Part shown: one piece after another, positions 4,798-24,102 of the stretch
How the letters are laid out: every line of letters begins with the position of its first letter
Position numbering within the stretch: the stretch's first letter is position 1
From: a virus
IMG/VR virus record: IMGVR_UViG_3300012920_009044
Location: 1-24,102 of that record
Direction: 5' to 3' (one strand)
DNA: 24,102 nucleotides
The notes under the pieces: model-generated
Told to the model about the DNA's origin: nothing
What the model saw: the letters and a program-made list of their open reading frames with translations, nothing else
The model's database searches: none
Program-made: the position numbers and the translations under genes

Positions 4798-5532
4798 TTA
4801 AATATTTTTATTAACATAAATAGCATCTACTTCAGTATTCCCTCCTACTAGGGTAGAACTTATACATTTAAAATCAGAAAGAATAAGATCTAATTCAGGC
4901 TTAATAATAGCTCCTTCATATAAAGGAACATTCCCTACTTCTGTATTTATAACTTGGATTGAGTTTAAATACTTACCAAAACTTTCAAATACTATTTTTT
5001 CGGCCCCTTGAACATCTACCCAAGCAATATCTATTTTTTTAATGTTTTTTTCTTGTAACCATTCAGATAATACAATTGAATCTACTTCAACTTCTTTTTG
5101 TAACCAACTTCTACTTCTATGATGGTTTGTAGTTTTTAATAAAGAACTAGCCCCTATATTACCATTATATACTTCATAAAATTTAGTGGCACCTTTACTA
5201 TTATTACAAGCATAATTATAAACTTCTATGTTTTTGATATTTTTTACATTATTAGCAGTATAATCAAAACTACTTTTAACAGGTTCAAATGTATATACTT
5301 TAGCATTTGGGAACCATCTATTAAATTCTAAACTTTGACATCCGTCTCTAGAACCTATATCTAATATAACTTCAACTTTTGAAAAATCAATAATAGGCGT
5401 AATTATATCTATAAGAGGTTTTGTTAATATTCTAGTGCATAACCCATCCTGGTTGCTAAAAGCACCATTTTTAAATTCCTCTTCAGTAAATGAATTTTTA
5501 GTTATTTCTTTATTTTTATTTATTAATTCCAC
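4798..5532 (-). CDS. FkbM-family methyltransferase (2 of 3)
   Basis: A 244-residue SAM-dependent methyltransferase. Motif I is LDIGSRDGCQS (residues 57-67), the strand-2 acid lies in FEPVK (82-86), and the FkbM signature is WVDVQGAEKI (171-180). An N-terminal stretch of about 50 residues precedes the Rossmann fold. The start is GTG (5532..5530). No in-frame ATG lies close downstream and the GTG is one base after the stop of the WavE-like gene, so it fits translational coupling. The likely role is O-methylation of a glycan residue or nucleotide-sugar product made by the neighbouring enzymes. Confidence 0.83.
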   Translation of the reverse strand: MELINKNKEITKNSFTEEEFKNGAFSNQDGLCTRILTKPLIDIITPIIDFSKVEVILDIGSRDGCQSLEFNRWFPNAKVYTFEPVKSSFDYTANNVKNIKNIEVYNYACNNSKGATKFYEVYNGNIGASSLLKTTNHHRSRSWLQKEVEVDSIVLSEWLQEKNIKKIDIAWVDVQGAEKIVFESFGKYLNSIQVINTEVGNVPLYEGAIIKPELDLILSDFKCISSTLVGGNTEVDAIYVNKNI

Positions 5533-17100: not shown

Positions 17101-18015
17101 TTATTTTATTTCTATTATTTTAGCTATTGCAGCCATTATGTTTATTTCTTTATCTATTCTAAATTGAGAATGATATGAATATTCGTTTAAATATATTGTA
17201 ACTAATCCTTCATTCCCAGAAGCATAAATACTAGCTTTATCATAAAGGAATCTATATAATTCCTCAAAATCTTTTACATTTGAATTTAATATAATTTGTC
17301 TAATAGTTCTCCAATTAGGTTTAGATTTCTTTAATTCATCTAATACTTCATTCATATAATTATTTGAAACTATTACAGACTTATCTAATACTAATTTTTT
17401 ATCCTTAATCGATAATTGTATAGTATTTAACATTTTTCTTATGTCTGGGTAATGAGTATTAACTATATCTACAAGAGCATCTATATCCCAACCTTCTCCT
17501 ATTTCCTCAATTAAGATTTTATTTAAATGTTTTGCTACTTCTTGTTTACTTGGAGGTATTACCTTTAATACTTGACATCTGGATTGTAAAGGATCTATTA
17601 TTCTTTCTATATAATTACACGTCATAATAAAACGTGTTGTTCTTGAAAATTTTTCAATTACATTTCTTAGCGACGCTTGCGCTTGAATTGTAAGGAAATC
17701 CGCTTCATCGAGGATGACAACTTTAATCTGTCTAAACGAAGCAGCACTTGAGAAGTTCGTGACCTTATCCCTAATAGTTTCAATACCCCGTTCATCTGAA
17801 GCGTTAATGTATAAGTAGTCGCAGTCCAAATTATTGACAATAAGTTTAGCGAGAGTAGTTTTCCCTGTACCAGCAGGACCATAAAAAATGAAGTTTTGTA
17901 TATCATCTTGATCTAAATAACTTTGTATTTGCTTTTTAATATGTTCGTTTCCTACATATTCATCTAATACTTTTGATCTATATTTTTCTACTAAAAGTGA
18001 ATGGTCTTTATTCAT
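17101..18015 (-). CDS. 44: Clamp-loader ATPase subunit, gp44 (RFC-like AAA+)
   Basis: The ATPase that opens the sliding clamp and loads it on primed DNA with gp62. The 304 residues carry the RFC signature set: VEKYRSK (9-15), Walker A GPAGTGKTT (46-54), Walker B VVILDEAD (99-106), sensor 1 TCN (132-134) and the arginine-finger motif SRC (145-147). Length is near T4 gp44 (319). Codon use changes inside the gene: from about 17665 to 17880 G- and C-ending codons (GTC, ATC, CTC, GCG, TTC) are common, unlike the ends of the gene and its neighbours. A promoter candidate ends six bases before the ATG, which would give a leaderless message. Confidence 0.93.
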   Translation of the reverse strand: MNKDHSLLVEKYRSKVLDEYVGNEHIKKQIQSYLDQDDIQNFIFYGPAGTGKTTLAKLIVNNLDCDYLYINASDERGIETIRDKVTNFSSAASFRQIKVVILDEADFLTIQAQASLRNVIEKFSRTTRFIMTCNYIERIIDPLQSRCQVLKVIPPSKQEVAKHLNKILIEEIGEGWDIDALVDIVNTHYPDIRKMLNTIQLSIKDKKLVLDKSVIVSNNYMNEVLDELKKSKPNWRTIRQIILNSNVKDFEELYRFLYDKASIYASGNEGLVTIYLNEYSYHSQFRIDKEINIMAAIAKIIEIK

Positions 18016-18021
18016 AGTGTA

Positions 18022-18050
18022 AATATATGAAATTTATTTTTGAATTCCAA
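18022..18050 (-). promoter_or_regulatory. Promoter candidate before gp44 (possibly leaderless)
   Basis: Minus-strand TTGGAA (18050..18045), 17-base spacer, TATATT (18027..18022), then six bases to the ATG at 18015. The normal start of transcription would fall on or next to the A of the ATG, giving an mRNA with no leader. Same -10 and spacing as the other candidates in the window. Confidence 0.35.
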
Positions 18051-18051
18051 A

Positions 18052-18324
18052 TTATATTCCTTGTTGAAATTCTCCATATAAAGAAAATGTTTTTGGTTCT
18101 TCAACTTTTATTTCTTCTTCAGATGTTTTTATGGCATATAACTTACTATTTAAAGGAGCTAATCTATATTCACCTTTAAACTTAGTTTGTTGGTGAAAAG
18201 CTTCTAATGCATCTGTAAGTGTTTTAAATACTTCTTTTTTTGGATCACCAACTAGTACCCACTGATCTCCAGGGGGTACTCTTTTGGCAATTAATTCATT
18301 GTGTTCAACTATCTTTGTATCCAT
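18052..18324 (-). CDS. Hypothetical protein after GroEL, 90 residues
   Basis: Not recognised. It is soluble, with a first part carrying PPGDQWVLVGDP (residues 17-28) and a helix (VFKTLTDALEAFHQQ), then a beta-like stretch (YRLAPLNSKLYAIKT) and an acidic tail (SEEEIKVEEPK). Its ATG overlaps the GroEL stop as TAATG, so it is co-translated with the chaperonin and could be a client or adaptor of it (speculation). The downstream gap to gp44 is 36 bases. Confidence 0.55.
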   Translation of the reverse strand: MDTKIVEHNELIAKRVPPGDQWVLVGDPKKEVFKTLTDALEAFHQQTKFKGEYRLAPLNSKLYAIKTSEEEIKVEEPKTFSLYGEFQQGI

Positions 18325-19922
18325 TAGAACATTCCATTTAATTGTGGTTGATTATTTTCTGATTCTTCTTCTACAACAACACACTCAGTTAATAATACAG
18401 TTCCTGCTACTGCAGCTGCATTTTCAAGGGCTGTTCTAGTTACTTTAAGTGGATCGATAATTCCATTTTCTTTGAAATCTACTACTTTATCTTTTTTAAT
18501 GTCATATCCTTTCCACTCTCCATCTGTAGATATTTCTCCATCTAGAAATTCTATTTTATCTTTAGTAATTCCTGCATTTTCTAAAATTTGTTTAAATGGT
18601 TTTGCACAAGCCATACGTACAATTTCTGATCCAATATTGTCTGTTGCTATGACTTTTCTTGCATTATATAGAGCAACTCCTCCACCAGGTATTACCCCTT
18701 CACTTAAAGCTGCTTGTGTAGCATTAAGAGCATCATCAACTCTATCTTTTTTCTCATTCATTTCAGTTTCATTAAATCCCCCTACATGAATAATAGAAAC
18801 ACCACCTACCATTTTGGCTAAACGATTTTGTAATTGCTCAGTTTCAAATGGAGTTGTTGAGTTATCTATTTGATTTGTTAGTTCATCTACTCTTTTATTT
18901 ATAGCTTCTTCTGTACCTTTACCATCAACTATAGTTGTTTTTGATTTTGAAATGGTTATAGCACGAGCTTCACCAAACCAATCCCAACTAAATTTATCTA
19001 ATTTCATTCCTTTATCTTTATCAAATACTACCCCATTTGTTAATGTTGCAATATCTTCTAAAATAAGTTTCCTTCTATCACCAAAGTCAGGTGCTTTTAT
19101 AGCACATACTTTTAATGTACCTCTAGCTTTATTTACAATTAAAGTAGCTAAAGCTTCATTATCAATATCTTCAGCAATAATAAGTAATGATTTATCAGTA
19201 GCTGATACTTGTTCTAAAATAGGTAATAATTCTTTTACTTGGGTAAATTTATGATCTGCAATTAAAATATAAGCATCTTTTAAAGTACAAGTCATACTAT
19301 CATTATCAGTAACAAAGAAATGAGATTTATAACCTCTATCTAATTGCATACCTTCAACAGTTTCTAAATATGTTTCTCCTGATTTGGATTCTTCAATATG
19401 AACAATACCATCTCTACCTACTTTTTTAATAGCAGTAGCAATTAATTTACCTACTTCAGGGTCATTATTTGCTGATAAAGTAGCTACTTGTTCTAATTGA
19501 TCTTCAGATGAGATATCTTCACTAATATTTTTTAATTCTTCAACAATTTCTTTTACAGAAGCATCAATATCTCTTTTAATTTGAACTGCATTTTTTCCTT
19601 CATTTAAAGCAGATAACCCACCATGAATCATTTCTCTAGCTAATAAAGTGGAGGTAGTTGTACCATCTCCTGCTTTATCTGCTGTTTTAATTGCTGCTTG
19701 TTTTACTAATTTAACTCCTGTTTCCTCAACAGGATCTTTTAAAGTTATACTTTTAGCTACTGTAACCCCATCCTTTGTTGATTTTACACTTTCATTTGGG
19801 TTTGATATTACAGCATTTCTACCGTTGGGTCCTAAAGTACAAACAACAGAATCAGCTAGGATATCAATTCCATTAACTAATTTTGATCTGCCTTCTTCTC
19901 CTAATTCAATAATTTTTGACAT
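18324..19922 (-). CDS. groEL: Group I chaperonin GroEL (phage-encoded)
   Basis: ATP-driven folding chamber, made of two seven-subunit rings in bacteria. At 532 residues it is near full length (E. coli 548). Key parts are present: GPNGRN (31-36, where hosts usually have GPKGRN), STKDGVTVAKS (48-58), nucleotide-binding GDGTTT (85-90), the catalytic aspartate D397 in RVDDAL (394-399) and GGG (413-415). The apical binding surface is conserved (DRGY 195-198, FF 202-203, ELLPILE 231-237, EALATLIVN 256-264). The usual glycine/methionine-rich C-terminal tail is missing, and the protein ends in a polar tail with NGMF. It lies nine bases after GroES with no Shine-Dalgarno. It probably folds phage proteins with its own GroES. 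Confidence 0.96.
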   Translation of the reverse strand: MSKIIELGEEGRSKLVNGIDILADSVVCTLGPNGRNAVISNPNESVKSTKDGVTVAKSITLKDPVEETGVKLVKQAAIKTADKAGDGTTTSTLLAREMIHGGLSALNEGKNAVQIKRDIDASVKEIVEELKNISEDISSEDQLEQVATLSANNDPEVGKLIATAIKKVGRDGIVHIEESKSGETYLETVEGMQLDRGYKSHFFVTDNDSMTCTLKDAYILIADHKFTQVKELLPILEQVSATDKSLLIIAEDIDNEALATLIVNKARGTLKVCAIKAPDFGDRRKLILEDIATLTNGVVFDKDKGMKLDKFSWDWFGEARAITISKSKTTIVDGKGTEEAINKRVDELTNQIDNSTTPFETEQLQNRLAKMVGGVSIIHVGGFNETEMNEKKDRVDDALNATQAALSEGVIPGGGVALYNARKVIATDNIGSEIVRMACAKPFKQILENAGITKDKIEFLDGEISTDGEWKGYDIKKDKVVDFKENGIIDPLKVTRTALENAAAVAGTVLLTECVVVEEESENNQPQLNGMF

Positions 19923-19931
19923 AGTTTTATT

Positions 19932-20249
19932 TTAAAATGGTAATTCTTTTTTTTCTTCTTCATTAGCAATTCTTGCTAATATTTGATTTTCAGGTCCTAT
20001 ATGATATTCTTCTCCTTCAAAATCTAATTTTGTAAATCCCATTGTAGGTAATACTACAATATCTCCTTCTTTTAATTGAGTAGGAATAAAATGACCCATC
20101 TGGGTTGTCATACCAGGACCAACTGCCATAACTTCTCCTTGTTGGTTTTTCTCTTTTCCAATATCAGGAACTACAATATTTCCAAATGTTTCTTCTTCGG
20201 ATTCTATTGGTTTTACTACAACAGCATTAAATAGTGCTTTTAATTTCAT
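19932..20249 (-). CDS. groES: Co-chaperonin GroES (phage-encoded)
   Basis: The lid of the GroEL chamber. It has 105 residues (E. coli 97) and the GroES layout: start MKLKALFNAVVVKP matching the family's first strand, mobile loop about 19-31 with the hydrophobic tripeptide I25-V26-V27 at the place of the GroEL-binding IVL, then GEVMAVGPG (38-46), EGDIVVLPTMG (61-71) and ILARI near the end (90-94). This is a true GroES and not the T4 gp31 type, whose loop and roof differ. It ends with an acidic/lysine tail. The gene is preceded by 63 bases that hold a promoter candidate. Confidence 0.93.
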   Translation of the reverse strand: MKLKALFNAVVVKPIESEEETFGNIVVPDIGKEKNQQGEVMAVGPGMTTQMGHFIPTQLKEGDIVVLPTMGFTKLDFEGEEYHIGPENQILARIANEEEKKELPF

Positions 20250-20265
20250 AACGTTTTTTTGGTTT

Positions 20266-20294
20266 AATATAATAAAAAGGAATCAATAAAACAA
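20266..20294 (-). promoter_or_regulatory. Promoter candidate before groES
   Basis: Minus-strand TTGTTT (20294..20289), exactly 17 bases, TATATT (20271..20266), then 16 bases to the ATG at 20249. Both hexamers and the spacer length are identical to those of the candidate before hsp20, and AGC precedes the -35 in both. This gives groES-groEL its own start in addition to read-through from hsp20. Confidence 0.5.
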
Positions 20295-20304
20295 GCTTAG
20301 GATG
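20292..20304. repeat. 13-base inverted repeat, copy 1 (after hsp20)
   Basis: CAAGCTTAGGATG on the plus strand. Its exact reverse complement lies at 20813-20825, so the pair encloses the hsp20 gene. This copy starts nine bases past the hsp20 stop and overlaps the -35 of the groES promoter candidate. Confidence 0.85.
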
Positions 20305-20312
20305 ACTTTCTT

Positions 20313-20753
20313 TTATTTTATTGTTATTGATTTTGTTGCAATTGCTTTTTCTGAAAAAGGAACTGATATAATTAATAATCCATTCTCCATCTTAGCATCT
20401 GCTTTTGATAAATTGAATCGGTTAACTACTTTATAACCGAAATTAAATGAACGTTTTGCGATTCCAGAGTAATAATACTCTCTATCATTAAAATGATCAT
20501 TTGGTTTTTCATAACTAATTCTTAAAACGTCTCCTTCGATGGTTAAACCAACATCTTTTTTAGTTAAACCAGTACAAGCTACTTCCAGATGAAGTCCATT
20601 TTTGTCTTCATAAACATCTACTGGATGTTTGAGCTTTACTGATGTTAAGGGATTGAAAGGTGCTTCGGTATCGAAGAAATTTCTGACTAATATGTCAAAA
20701 GGTGTGTGTAATTGTCTTGCTAGACCTGGGTCTATTTCTCTTAATAGTGTCAT
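20313..20753 (-). CDS. Small heat-shock protein Hsp20 (alpha-crystallin domain)
   Basis: An ATP-independent holdase that binds unfolding proteins and passes them to refolding chaperones. 146 residues: an N-terminal arm (1-42), the alpha-crystallin domain (about 43-133) with PVDVYEDKNGLHLEVACTG and KADAKMENGLLIISVP, the latter matching the conserved A-x-x-x-NG-x-L motif, and a short C-terminal extension with an ITI motif (143-145) that links subunits in oligomers. Hsp20 genes are common in cyanophages and other marine T4-like phages. Here it is the first of hsp20-groES-groEL and is less AT-rich than its neighbours, suggesting separate acquisition. A 116-base leader with a promoter candidate precedes it. 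Confidence 0.93.
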   Translation of the reverse strand: MTLLREIDPGLARQLHTPFDILVRNFFDTEAPFNPLTSVKLKHPVDVYEDKNGLHLEVACTGLTKKDVGLTIEGDVLRISYEKPNDHFNDREYYYSGIAKRSFNFGYKVVNRFNLSKADAKMENGLLIISVPFSEKAIATKSITIK

Positions 20754-20869: not shown

Positions 20870-21604
20870 TTAAAAATCTTCACCTACTTTTCTTACTATA
20901 AAATATTCACTTGTTGTGTTATCTGATGTGAAATTTAATTTCATTAAACCTGTACTAGTAAGATAAATTGTACCAGTATCCATATCTTTATTAGCATATA
21001 GAATAGATTTAAATAATTCTGAATTAAATGGCATTTTTAATCCTAATTCGTTTATATCACCTGGTAATTGATAAGTAATTTTACTATCAAATTCTTTTTC
21101 GTCCCCAAATATAAATTGGCATACATTGTCTCCATCTTCATTTGTAGTAGTTTCTATAAACATATTGTTTTCTTCTCCTAATGCCTTTTTAGCTTTAATT
21201 AAATTTTCTAAATCTTCTACTTCTACTTGTATTTTATTTTTCCATTCAGGAACATTAACAGTTCCTACTTTATCAATTAATAAAGGATCACCTAACCTAT
21301 ATGTTAAATTAAAATTAGGGTCTGATATTTTTAATTTAGTAGGGATTAAATGATTTTTTTCTAATTCTACTATTAAATCACCATTAGTAATAGAAATTAA
21401 GTTTTGTAATTTTTTAGTATCAAATACAGCTAAATCACAATCTTCTAATTCAAAACCAGTATGTTCGACATTTCCAATTACTTCTTTAGATGGATCCATA
21501 AAATCAATTAATATCGTTTTATTTTTGATACTCCAATTAACTGATTGAACTATACCTAAATGGTATTTATTTATTAAATTTTGTAAAACTAATTTATTTA
21601 TCAT
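20870..21604 (-). CDS. 45: Sliding clamp, gp45
   Basis: The ring that tethers DNA polymerase to DNA, a homotrimer in T4, where it also activates late transcription. 244 residues against 228 in T4. It has no catalytic motif. The assignment comes from the overall pattern (start NKLVLQNLINKY, SVNWSIKNKTILIDFMD, a DLAVFDTKKLQNLISI block, FNSELFKSIL, TIYLTSTGLMKL and the ending EYFIVRK) and from its place directly after the polymerase C-terminal gene, overlapping it by ATGA. Coupling of clamp and polymerase tail is notable because in T4 the polymerase C-terminus binds the clamp. Confidence 0.88.
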   Translation of the reverse strand: MINKLVLQNLINKYHLGIVQSVNWSIKNKTILIDFMDPSKEVIGNVEHTGFELEDCDLAVFDTKKLQNLISITNGDLIVELEKNHLIPTKLKISDPNFNLTYRLGDPLLIDKVGTVNVPEWKNKIQVEVEDLENLIKAKKALGEENNMFIETTTNEDGDNVCQFIFGDEKEFDSKITYQLPGDINELGLKMPFNSELFKSILYANKDMDTGTIYLTSTGLMKLNFTSDNTTSEYFIVRKVGEDF

Positions 21605-22539
21605 AAGTTAAAAAACATTTCTTTATAAGGATTTAAGTTTAATTGCCATTCCATATCACTATAAAAACCTTCTAATTTATTTAATAATACACTTTCAAAT
21701 ATTTTTTTCCTGTCAGCATATTCTTCAATGAATGTACGCATCTTATCTGGGTAATCCCACTCTAAAAGAGCAATTGCTTCAATATTATAAGGATTGTGTT
21801 TTAAATATATCCATTTAATTTTATCTCCTTGAGCTATTTCACTATGTGTTTTATGTAAATTCCAAAAACGTAATAAATCATTATATATAATAGTTGCTTT
21901 AACTGCAGCAGGAGCACCTTTACCTATTTTAGAAAATATTTCTCCTGATCTAGCTTTACGTTCAGTGTATTTATTTAATTTTTTTACCGAGGTTGGGTTA
22001 GCTAAATCAGATAAAGGGATTGTTCCATCTAATATTTCAGTTCTAAACTTTTTTACTTTATTGTCTAGTATTTCTTTATCAACTCCTTCTAAAGCACTTA
22101 AAACTAACTCTTCAAAAAATTTACCAAATTTAGGTGGAAAATTAGCCTTTTTAAATTCTAACCCTTTAATATCAAATTTATTTGTAGGAATACCTTCTTC
22201 CCTAGTAATATATTGAGTATATCTTCTAGTAGCTCTAATATAACCTGATCTTAATACACATTCATTTTTAAAATCAATTCTTTGATTTTCAGGGTTATAC
22301 TGATTAAATGATTGTTCTGTAATTTGTTTTAAAATAGGACCTACCATATCTTGACTTGCAGTAGCTAATTTTTCAACTAAATCATCTTTTTCCTCGTTTG
22401 ACATTTCATTAAAATTAGGATATAATTTTTTAAGAATAGGCTCAGCATGAAAATAATTACTATCAGTATCTATATAAACACAATAGTTGTTTTTTTCCTT
22501 ATCACAGATAAATTTAGGTGTATCTTCTAAATGTTTCAT
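21601..22539 (-). CDS. 43B: DNA polymerase family B, C-terminal part (split gp43)
   Basis: This part supplies polymerase motif C and the thumb. In 312 residues: YIDTDS (22-27, the two catalytic aspartates D24 and D26), TRRY (104-107, the KKRY-type primer-contact motif), FDIKGLEFKKANFPP (122-136, matching the T4 segment after KKRY), and a C-terminal end KEMFFNL that resembles the clamp-binding tail of T4 gp43. It has its own ATG overlapping the SET gene's stop by ATGA and 18 extra residues before the conserved block. It lacks the exonuclease domain and motifs A and B, which are on the separate upstream gene, so activity requires assembly with that product. Confidence 0.92.
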   Translation of the reverse strand: MKHLEDTPKFICDKEKNNYCVYIDTDSNYFHAEPILKKLYPNFNEMSNEEKDDLVEKLATASQDMVGPILKQITEQSFNQYNPENQRIDFKNECVLRSGYIRATRRYTQYITREEGIPTNKFDIKGLEFKKANFPPKFGKFFEELVLSALEGVDKEILDNKVKKFRTEILDGTIPLSDLANPTSVKKLNKYTERKARSGEIFSKIGKGAPAAVKATIIYNDLLRFWNLHKTHSEIAQGDKIKWIYLKHNPYNIEAIALLEWDYPDKMRTFIEEYADRKKIFESVLLNKLEGFYSDMEWQLNLNPYKEMFFNL

Positions 22540-22844
22540 TCAGTTGGATCGTATAAATTATAACATACTGTTAATTCCTCTCCTTCTTCTATGTCTGCAA
22601 GAGTAACTAAATGGTAATTATCTAAATGTTCTCTTAACCAACAATTAGGAGTATCTGAATGGTTAATGAATCCTCCTAAAGGTGTTCTTAAGAATCCATC
22701 TTCAAATTTATCTTCTTGGTAATGGGTCATACCTAATTCTAATTCAGAATCTATATCTCTAGTAGCAAATAATCCTAACCCTTCAATTTTAGAAGGTTTA
22801 ATTGTAACAAAATTTGGTAGTGGTTTATAATAGTTTTTTTTCAT
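22536..22844 (-). CDS. Minimal SET-domain protein (putative lysine methyltransferase)
   Basis: A 102-residue protein made almost only of SET-domain core: IEGLGLFATRDI (residues 20-31, the GxG SAM-binding motif), GGFINHSDTPNC (57-68, the NHS motif that forms the SAM pseudoknot) and GEELTVCY (88-95, in place of ELxxDY with the catalytic tyrosine). The middle SET-I insert is very short, so it is smaller than usual SET enzymes (about 130 residues). The start is the ATG at 22844, overlapping the previous TGA. A TTG two codons earlier is not needed. SET proteins methylate lysines, and the target here is unknown. It lies between the two polymerase halves. Confidence 0.85.
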   Translation of the reverse strand: MKKNYYKPLPNFVTIKPSKIEGLGLFATRDIDSELELGMTHYQEDKFEDGFLRTPLGGFINHSDTPNCWLREHLDNYHLVTLADIEEGEELTVCYNLYDPTE

Positions 22845-23101
22845 TTCCAATAATCGGGATTATGAGGTCTAGCAGGACTATCAATTTCACCCTTACTATT
22901 CCTCTGTTCATATTCATACTTCTTAATATTAAATACATTATCTTTAATTTTAAGCTTCCCCCCCTGTTTTAACATTTTTCTAAAATGTTGTTCTTCTTTT
23001 TCATTAAAATCTTTAGCTATTTCTAAAATTTCTTCTTTAGTCATTTGAACATCATTTAAAAAAATAGTATGTTCTCTTCTTATTGATTGTTTACTTAACA
23101 T
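22841..23101 (-). CDS. Orphan protein between polymerase halves, 86 residues
   Basis: Not recognised. It is charged and mostly helical in the first two thirds (TKEEILEIAKDFNEKEEQHF, then RKMLKQGGKLKIKD), with a polar tail ending ARPHNPDYWK. No nuclease motif (HNH, GIY-YIG, LAGLIDADG) and no zinc-binding cysteines, so there is no sign of a homing endonuclease. Its ATG lies inside the last codons of the polymerase N-terminal gene (overlap of seven bases, another frame), and its stop overlaps the SET start by ATGA. Confidence 0.6.
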   Translation of the reverse strand: MLSKQSIRREHTIFLNDVQMTKEEILEIAKDFNEKEEQHFRKMLKQGGKLKIKDNVFNIKKYEYEQRNSKGEIDSPARPHNPDYWK

Positions 23102-24102
23102 AATTCTAATTTTGTTTTATCTTCCATTACATCATTAAAAAATTCATTTATAGCTTTAGCCGAGTCTTGAATTAATCTTTGACCTGTTAAAGTAATTGAT
23201 TCTGCTAATAATATATTTCCATATCTAAAAACTCCAAGAGCAGTAGCACCATACAAACTATTTAGTAAAATTTTCATTGTATATTGTTTCATGTGAAGTT
23301 GAGCTGCTAGTTCTTTATTACCTGCTTTCTTAGCTTCTTTCATTTGATTTTTATACATAACTCTTTCATTAAACCATTTTTTTAGAATAGTTGAAAGTAC
23401 TGATTCAGTTTTAGAACTATACATAACACCATTTGCTGATATAGTCCATTTGTTTTTTTCAATATGGTATATTAAATCTTTAACTTTTAAGGGTTGTAAT
23501 ATTCCTTCTTTACTATTTTTATAACTAATAACATCTAATTCTTTATTAGGATCCATTTCTTTTAGATCAGATAAACTATATCTACAATTCCATACTTCTT
23601 TTCCTTCATAATTAACTTTTACTTCATCATATGGAATTTTAATTCTACCTACCATAGTTTCATTTCCTATATTTACAGTCATTATAATAGTAGGATATAG
23701 TGAGGTGAAATCTAAATCAAACATATGGTTATATATTCCCGCTTTAGGACAAAATAAATAACCACCTGCATATTGTTGTTCTACTTTTTTACCTTTTTTA
23801 GGTGGGATAATTCCTTTACCTAATAAATAAGCTGAAATGGCACCATCTTGGGTTTTAGTATTTGCATATACTTCTTCGTAATTATGTTTACCTTTATGAG
23901 ATAGATTTTTTACTAAAGAAACATATTCTAATTTTTTATCTAATTCAACTAATATCTCAACATCACGAAAGTTGTATTGAATAAATTTATCAATATCAGT
24001 TTCAAATAATCTATCTAAATTTCCCTCATAATCAACTTTCCCAAGTTTAACATATTTTTCTCCTATAGCTTGCAAACGCATTGAAGGTTCATCAGCCCAT
24101 GA
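23095..24102 (-). CDS. 43A: DNA polymerase family B, N-terminal part (split gp43, 5' end outside window)
   Basis: The frame is open to the window edge, so the true start is outside. Seven codons precede the first visible methionine at 24081 (residue 1 here). Present: exonuclease motif III Y36-x3-D40, YAGGY (104-108, the exonuclease-polymerase link), polymerase motif A DLDFTSLYPT (122-131, catalytic D124), fingers helix with R240, and motif B KILLNSLYG (270-278). The segment before motif A aligns well with T4 gp43 by eye. It ends in ELC and a TAA just where the loop to motif C begins, and motif C is on a separate gene 555 bases downstream. No frameshift joins them. Confidence 0.93.
   Translation of the reverse strand, partial: SWADEPSMRLQAIGEKYVKLGKVDYEGNLDRLFETDIDKFIQYNFRDVEILVELDKKLEYVSLVKNLSHKGKHNYEEVYANTKTQDGAISAYLLGKGIIPPKKGKKVEQQYAGGYLFCPKAGIYNHMFDLDFTSLYPTIIMTVNIGNETMVGRIKIPYDEVKVNYEGKEVWNCRYSLSDLKEMDPNKELDVISYKNSKEGILQPLKVKDLIYHIEKNKWTISANGVMYSSKTESVLSTILKKWFNERVMYKNQMKEAKKAGNKELAAQLHMKQYTMKILLNSLYGATALGVFRYGNILLAESITLTGQRLIQDSAKAINEFFNDVMEDKTKLELC

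Follow-up and report, generated by a model that had tools for sequence, protein, structure and literature searches.

How can a replicative DNA polymerase be encoded in two pieces, with motifs A and B on one gene, motif C on another and two further genes standing between them, and how does such an arrangement arise and persist? The question is posed by a virus record in IMG/VR, which we analysed over its complete length of 24,102 bp (hereafter the window). We argue that the locus probably encodes an obligate two-subunit gp43 that was split once in a permissive loop, was never healed, and is now a docking site for genes.

A polymerase divided in the palm

The locus is a run of minus-strand genes:

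23095–24102, minus strand: N-half of a family B DNA polymerase (gp43-like), with exonuclease motif III and motifs A and B
22841–23101, minus strand: P4, a conserved small replication-module protein of 86 residues; 7-base overlap of its start with the N-half stop
22536–22844, minus strand: SET-domain protein (Pfam SET, E=6e-11; phrog_28741, E=3e-21); ATGA overlap on each side, with P4 and with the C-half
21601–22539, minus strand: C-half of the DNA polymerase, with a new N-terminal tail, motif C (YIDTDS), the remaining palm and the thumb
20870–21604, minus strand: sliding clamp (gp45-like), by position and homology to the clamp-position gene of relatives, the name being given partly by synteny; ATGA overlap with the C-half stop
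17101–20753, minus strand: remaining conserved module of Hsp20, GroES, GroEL, a 90-residue gene and clamp loader gp44

A sugar cluster lies downstream of this replication module. The SET gene more likely starts at the ATG at 22844 (about 102 residues) than at the TTG at 22850 (104 residues), and the product of 22536–22844 has the SET signature motifs (GLGLFA, NHS..PN and GEELT.CYN).

A first-pass annotation had placed exonuclease motif III and motifs A and B on a gene ending at 23095, and motif C and the thumb on a gene starting at 22539. Its coordinates, frames and motifs are confirmed. The N-half carries exonuclease motif III (YNFRDVEIL), motif A (DLDFTSLYP) and motif B (KILLNSLYG); taken together, the two proteins have PolB motifs A, B and C. 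The N-half runs off the contig end and its 5' end is missing; the 3'–5' exonuclease domain is represented in the window by motif III, and exonuclease motifs I and II are carried by complete N-halves such as the 588-residue one of the close relative L002. Against PHROG 262 (gp43, 856 positions), the N-half matches positions 273–569 and the C-half 563–846.

The break could be placed on known structures, a check that the annotation had itself proposed for its claim that the palm is split in the loop before motif C. In searches against solved structures, the N-half aligns with T4 gp43 as far as residue 606 and a C-half profile aligns with RB69 gp43 from 607 to 898; the C-half as a single sequence (P0002) had no match in the same search, and the profile was needed. 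The N-half thus stops where the C-half begins, at about residue 606/607 of RB69 gp43, in the loop that leads from the motif B helix to the motif C strand. The C-half as modelled by AlphaFold matches RB69 gp43 (E ~1e-12, TMq 0.69, 309 columns), with low confidence for the first ∼20 residues of this chain modelled alone.

The C-half has a new N-terminus, whose family consensus is MKHLEDTPWWICD. Its mean conservation is 0.82 over 16 columns, against 0.745 for the C-half overall. Because the tail is more conserved than the C-half as a whole, a docking role for MKHLEDTPWWICD at the interface would fit.

Could RNA splicing, intein splicing or frameshifting rejoin the halves into one chain? We consider this very improbable. 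There are precedents, in that two relatives (L102 and L140) appear to have an intein insertion at PolB motif C and 43B of Aeromonas phage 25 contains a group I intron. However, no intron family or other RNA element was matched between 21500 and 24102, Pfam finds no intein domain in either half, and the C-half, which starts 23 residues ahead of DTDS, shows no intein motif. Moreover, the two genes between the halves have their own frames and start/stop overlaps.

The split recurs across a viral clade

Scans of viral contigs revealed an identical break in 135 related viral loci, 98 of them distinct, and not one re-fused polymerase among the 135. The arrangement seen in the window, which the first-pass annotation had implied to be singular, is one of many junction states within this clade. 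Its exact order (N-half, P4, SET, C-half) recurs in L048, L049, L051, L159 and L162, contigs of other samples, and L021 has P4, SET and a C-half that is 96% identical to that of the window.

This recurrence bears on the possibility, raised by the annotation, that the locus joins two phages in assembly, and equally on the reading that it is a decaying pseudogene. The record is a metagenomic contig with the N-half cut at its end, which leaves room for artefact. Yet the order is repeated in independent assemblies (L021 and the five loci above), the motifs are intact, dN/dS is low and synteny is conserved; the chance of an artefact or a pseudogene is negligible. Across the pairs tested, dN/dS for the N- and C-halves is 0.03–0.13, indicating purifying selection (0.13 for the N-half of the window compared with L002); P4 gives 0.145, and the SET gene gives 0.18 when compared with L021. 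Full motifs, purifying selection and stop/start overlaps at the junctions all bear out the view that both halves are healthy.

Because the window is this 24,102-bp record only, the absence of an intact gp43 has to be judged from relatives rather than from the window itself. Two 164-kb relative contigs are circularly closed, with 126-base end overlaps, and neither contains any family B polymerase other than the two halves. The intact gp43 elsewhere in the genome that the annotation had allowed for is therefore absent from both.

Two departures from the common pattern were observed. In L058 (∼4884–4970) motif C reads SDT*ADS, because six in-frame bases that include a TAA stop are inserted there; this could be an error, a dead copy or recoding. 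In L089–L091 and L013 the C-terminus of the N-half is extended at the junction by tens of residues.

Among the split contigs in genome collections, three fall in Flavobacteriales or Flavobacteriaceae bins and one in a Pelagibacter bin; this marine virus group probably infects Flavobacteria. Judged by GroEL, Flavobacterium phage immuto is the closest isolate (57%). We found no cultured phage with the split, and immuto has a family A polymerase there: its genome (11296–15635) is collinear over groES, groEL, a nuclease and glycosyltransferases, with the family A enzyme in the slot, a polymerase swap. Such swapping has been described in other phages (PMC11348598), and immuto is in line with it.

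Intact relatives and a proposed order of events

The annotation had suggested searching viromes for intact homologues and for the same split with other genes between, and both exist. One-piece genes are found in about 80 sister loci, which are related to Microcystis phage Mel-JY01. A single branch divides split from intact polymerases in the tree (SH-aLRT 99), with one state change and 86 split rows; the lineage of the window itself sits on a long branch (0.6–0.68).

Nearest to the split clade are L320 and L325, two independent assemblies with an intact gene of 889 residues. Their loop before motif C, counted by hand, is ∼42 residues, enlarged by ∼16 over the 25–26 of other intact genes and close to the 44–46 residues of the summed tails in split genes. 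These lengths suggest that the loop grew before the break. A tree with L320 added did not fix its exact place, and split monophyly was not rejected (AU p 0.39); L320 may instead be a re-fused gene. The polymerase reading frame of L320 (3258–5924) has an altered motif B, KILINSLCMATA instead of K..LNSLYGATA, which is unusual for an active PolB.

The intact relative L313 has the order polymerase, clamp, Hsp20, GroES, GroEL, P4, gp44. Since it shares the gene order of the module, its P4 is downstream of groEL and before gp44, far from the polymerase (which is truncated by the contig end). In the split clade the basal lineages have P4 in the junction and its loss is nested; parsimony on the tree gives six changes of P4 state.

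We propose the following sequence of events. In an ancestral one-piece polymerase, the surface loop from the motif B helix to the motif C strand would have become enlarged. The gene would then have broken once within this loop, most simply because P4 left its former place after groEL and inserted there. Parsimony suggests this role for P4, and the succession of the three steps (a longer loop, the arrival of P4, the break) is likewise our inference. Two proteins would be made from one operon by stop/start coupling and would assemble at the palm with no peptide bond between them, so that motifs A and C meet. The break would never have healed in this lineage, even after P4 departed, and the stop/start boundary would have become a site where whole genes come and go with the polymerase unharmed.

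A site where genes come and go

The contents of the junction vary widely. P4 alone occupies it in 31 of the 98 distinct loci, P4 with SET in 5 and P4 with other genes in 35; another gene without P4 is found in one, and in 26 there is nothing between the halves, mostly an ATGA or TAATG overlap. Many split loci were gathered with a P4 query, so these counts are biased and are not population frequencies. The largest inserts reach 3.1 kb and six genes. Sugar and LPS enzymes are prominent in the cargo, whose members include mannose-6-phosphate isomerase-type cupins, KDO8P/DAHP-synthase-type enzymes, transaldolase, RmlC, NAD-epimerase, glycosyltransferase, cytidylyltransferase, phosphomannomutase, tryptophan halogenase, methyltransferases, DUF6165, DUF2452 and GIY-YIG nucleases. 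Many inserts resemble the sugar cluster of the window.

Whichever gene is upstream, the C-half start keeps its closeness to it. In 79 of the 98 loci it overlaps the preceding stop (ATGA or TAATG), and in 95 the two are no more than 12 bases apart. This spacing is consistent with translational coupling across the junction.

The GIY-YIG genes bear on another origin, in which a GIY-YIG or similar homing endonuclease split the polymerase and was later lost, P4, SET and the others arriving afterwards; the resulting two-subunit enzyme would be the same. The first-pass annotation had noted that no endonuclease is present, which is correct for the window but not for the clade, as GIY-YIG genes lie within the same junction in L078–L080 and L232. 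Nuclease-associated splits are also documented, in Aeromonas gp43, Aeh1 nrdA and T4 topoisomerase (PMC2988022) and in the phage 25 record. However, the junction nucleases are on nested tips, whereas the basal split lineages have P4 alone, and we think a nuclease scar possible but unlikely.

A second alternative concerns persistence. In a constructive neutral ratchet, neither the split nor the turnover at the junction would bring a benefit, and fusion would have become hard or disadvantageous once an interface had evolved. Several lineages have only an ATGA overlap between the halves, and yet none is fused; the neo-N-terminal tail of the C-half is also strongly constrained. We rate this at slightly under an even chance. 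It leaves the repeated placement of cargo unexplained, and it is compatible with, rather than exclusive of, an obligate two-subunit enzyme that doubles as a gene dock.

What is P4? The annotation had called it an orphan, a label that no longer applies to a conserved family present on hundreds of contigs. No significant match was found in Pfam or PHROG, no relative among solved structures and no counterpart among annotated phages. Its model (pLDDT 76) matches no fold significantly; the hits lean weakly towards winged-helix proteins (E above 3), which was not counted as evidence. In closed genomes without P4 in the junction, P4 lies ∼7.7 kb upstream. P4 is in the basal junctions and is kept elsewhere in the genome after leaving them. 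It could conceivably be a third subunit of the divided polymerase or a factor in its assembly, with stop/start coupling through the inserted genes linking their expression to the subunit ratio, though we hold this to be doubtful. If true, the break would be put to use and not just tolerated, and the split would be a controlled assembly step as well as a protected dock for cargo genes.

Apparent inteins and possible recoding in relatives

Three relatives show signs of further interruptions. In L140 (5001–9100) a split intein appears to divide the family B polymerase at motif C, and an endonuclease-like gene stands free between the parts; this looks like a fractured gene of the split-intein kind. 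L102 (LR756508, 1984–6640) is a 484-kb phage in which both polymerase motif C and the gp44 clamp loader gene seem to contain inteins.

In L328 (IMGVR_UViG_3300042691_050060) the start of the N-half, at exonuclease motif II (3–120), resembles the C-terminal end of an intein (HN|CDYFDVPYL). Motif C of its C-half (1588–1700) is interrupted by 23 out-of-frame bases, AGT|TAG CCC TTCG GGG CAAGAAA AGT|GAC ACA GAT, in one contig only. T4 gene 60 is translated by bypass between matched codons, GGA TAGCCTTCGGGCTA ... GGA. The matched codons, UAG stop and UUCG hairpin of L328 resemble this bypass, and a hop would restore FIAYSDTDSIY.

Relation to known split enzymes

The annotation had likened the locus to Aeromonas 43A/43B. 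The likeness in kind stands: phages 25 and 44RR also have a T4-type family B replicative polymerase as two polypeptides from adjacent genes with an insertion between. The break position differs, since in phage 25 it falls before motif B (43A stops within the fingers and 43B starts ahead of KILINSLYG) and in the window between B and C. Phage 25 has a homing endonuclease gene between the halves and a group IA2 intron in 43B; the window has neither at its break, although some relatives have GIY-YIG genes. Variable cargo and a large clade are features of the window's group, unlike phage 25. According to the review PMC2988022, which cites Petrov et al. 2010, the phage 25 halves co-purify and are active. 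By analogy, the two proteins of the window are predicted to assemble physically and to be catalytically active.

T4 topoisomerase gp39/gp60 and Aeh1 NrdA are likewise essential phage enzymes split in a critical region with genes between and function kept (PMC2988022), but they are tied to mob endonucleases and are not known as growing cargo sites. PolB of Methanothermobacter thermautotrophicus also consists of two polypeptides (PMC7776575; Kelman et al. 1999). It shares with the window a family B enzyme on two chains, but is a cellular archaeal enzyme. Its break probably lies near motif C. Dassa et al. are said to have described, in 2009, fractured genes whose parts carry split inteins that splice; these too are broken genes with another gene between, whereas neither half in the window has a Pfam intein domain. 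The OM43 phages MEP401 and MEP402, which are Zobellviridae-like, are another near system. Set against the phage 25, archaeal and intein cases, the polymerase of the window would work like a known split gp43, but the place of the break, its likely cause and its evolutionary depth are different.

Within the literature searched, we found no description of the split in this clade. A split gp43 or PolB as such is already known; the clade-wide persistence and the variable cargo appear to be new.

Discussion

To our knowledge, earlier descriptions of split polymerases concern isolated examples close to a nuclease or an intein. In the present group, a diverse and widespread clade of viruses has kept its replicative polymerase cut through the active-site domain since their common ancestor. 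Its intact sisters show what preceded the split, the lineages without an insert remain unhealed after losing it, and the gap has become a gene dock inside an essential enzyme.

The result is a series found in nature, from short and long loops to splits that hold P4, cargo or nothing. This series suits tests of how an enzyme of one chain turns into an obligate complex, constructive neutral evolution being one of the routes, and the break offers natural split points for engineered split polymerases.
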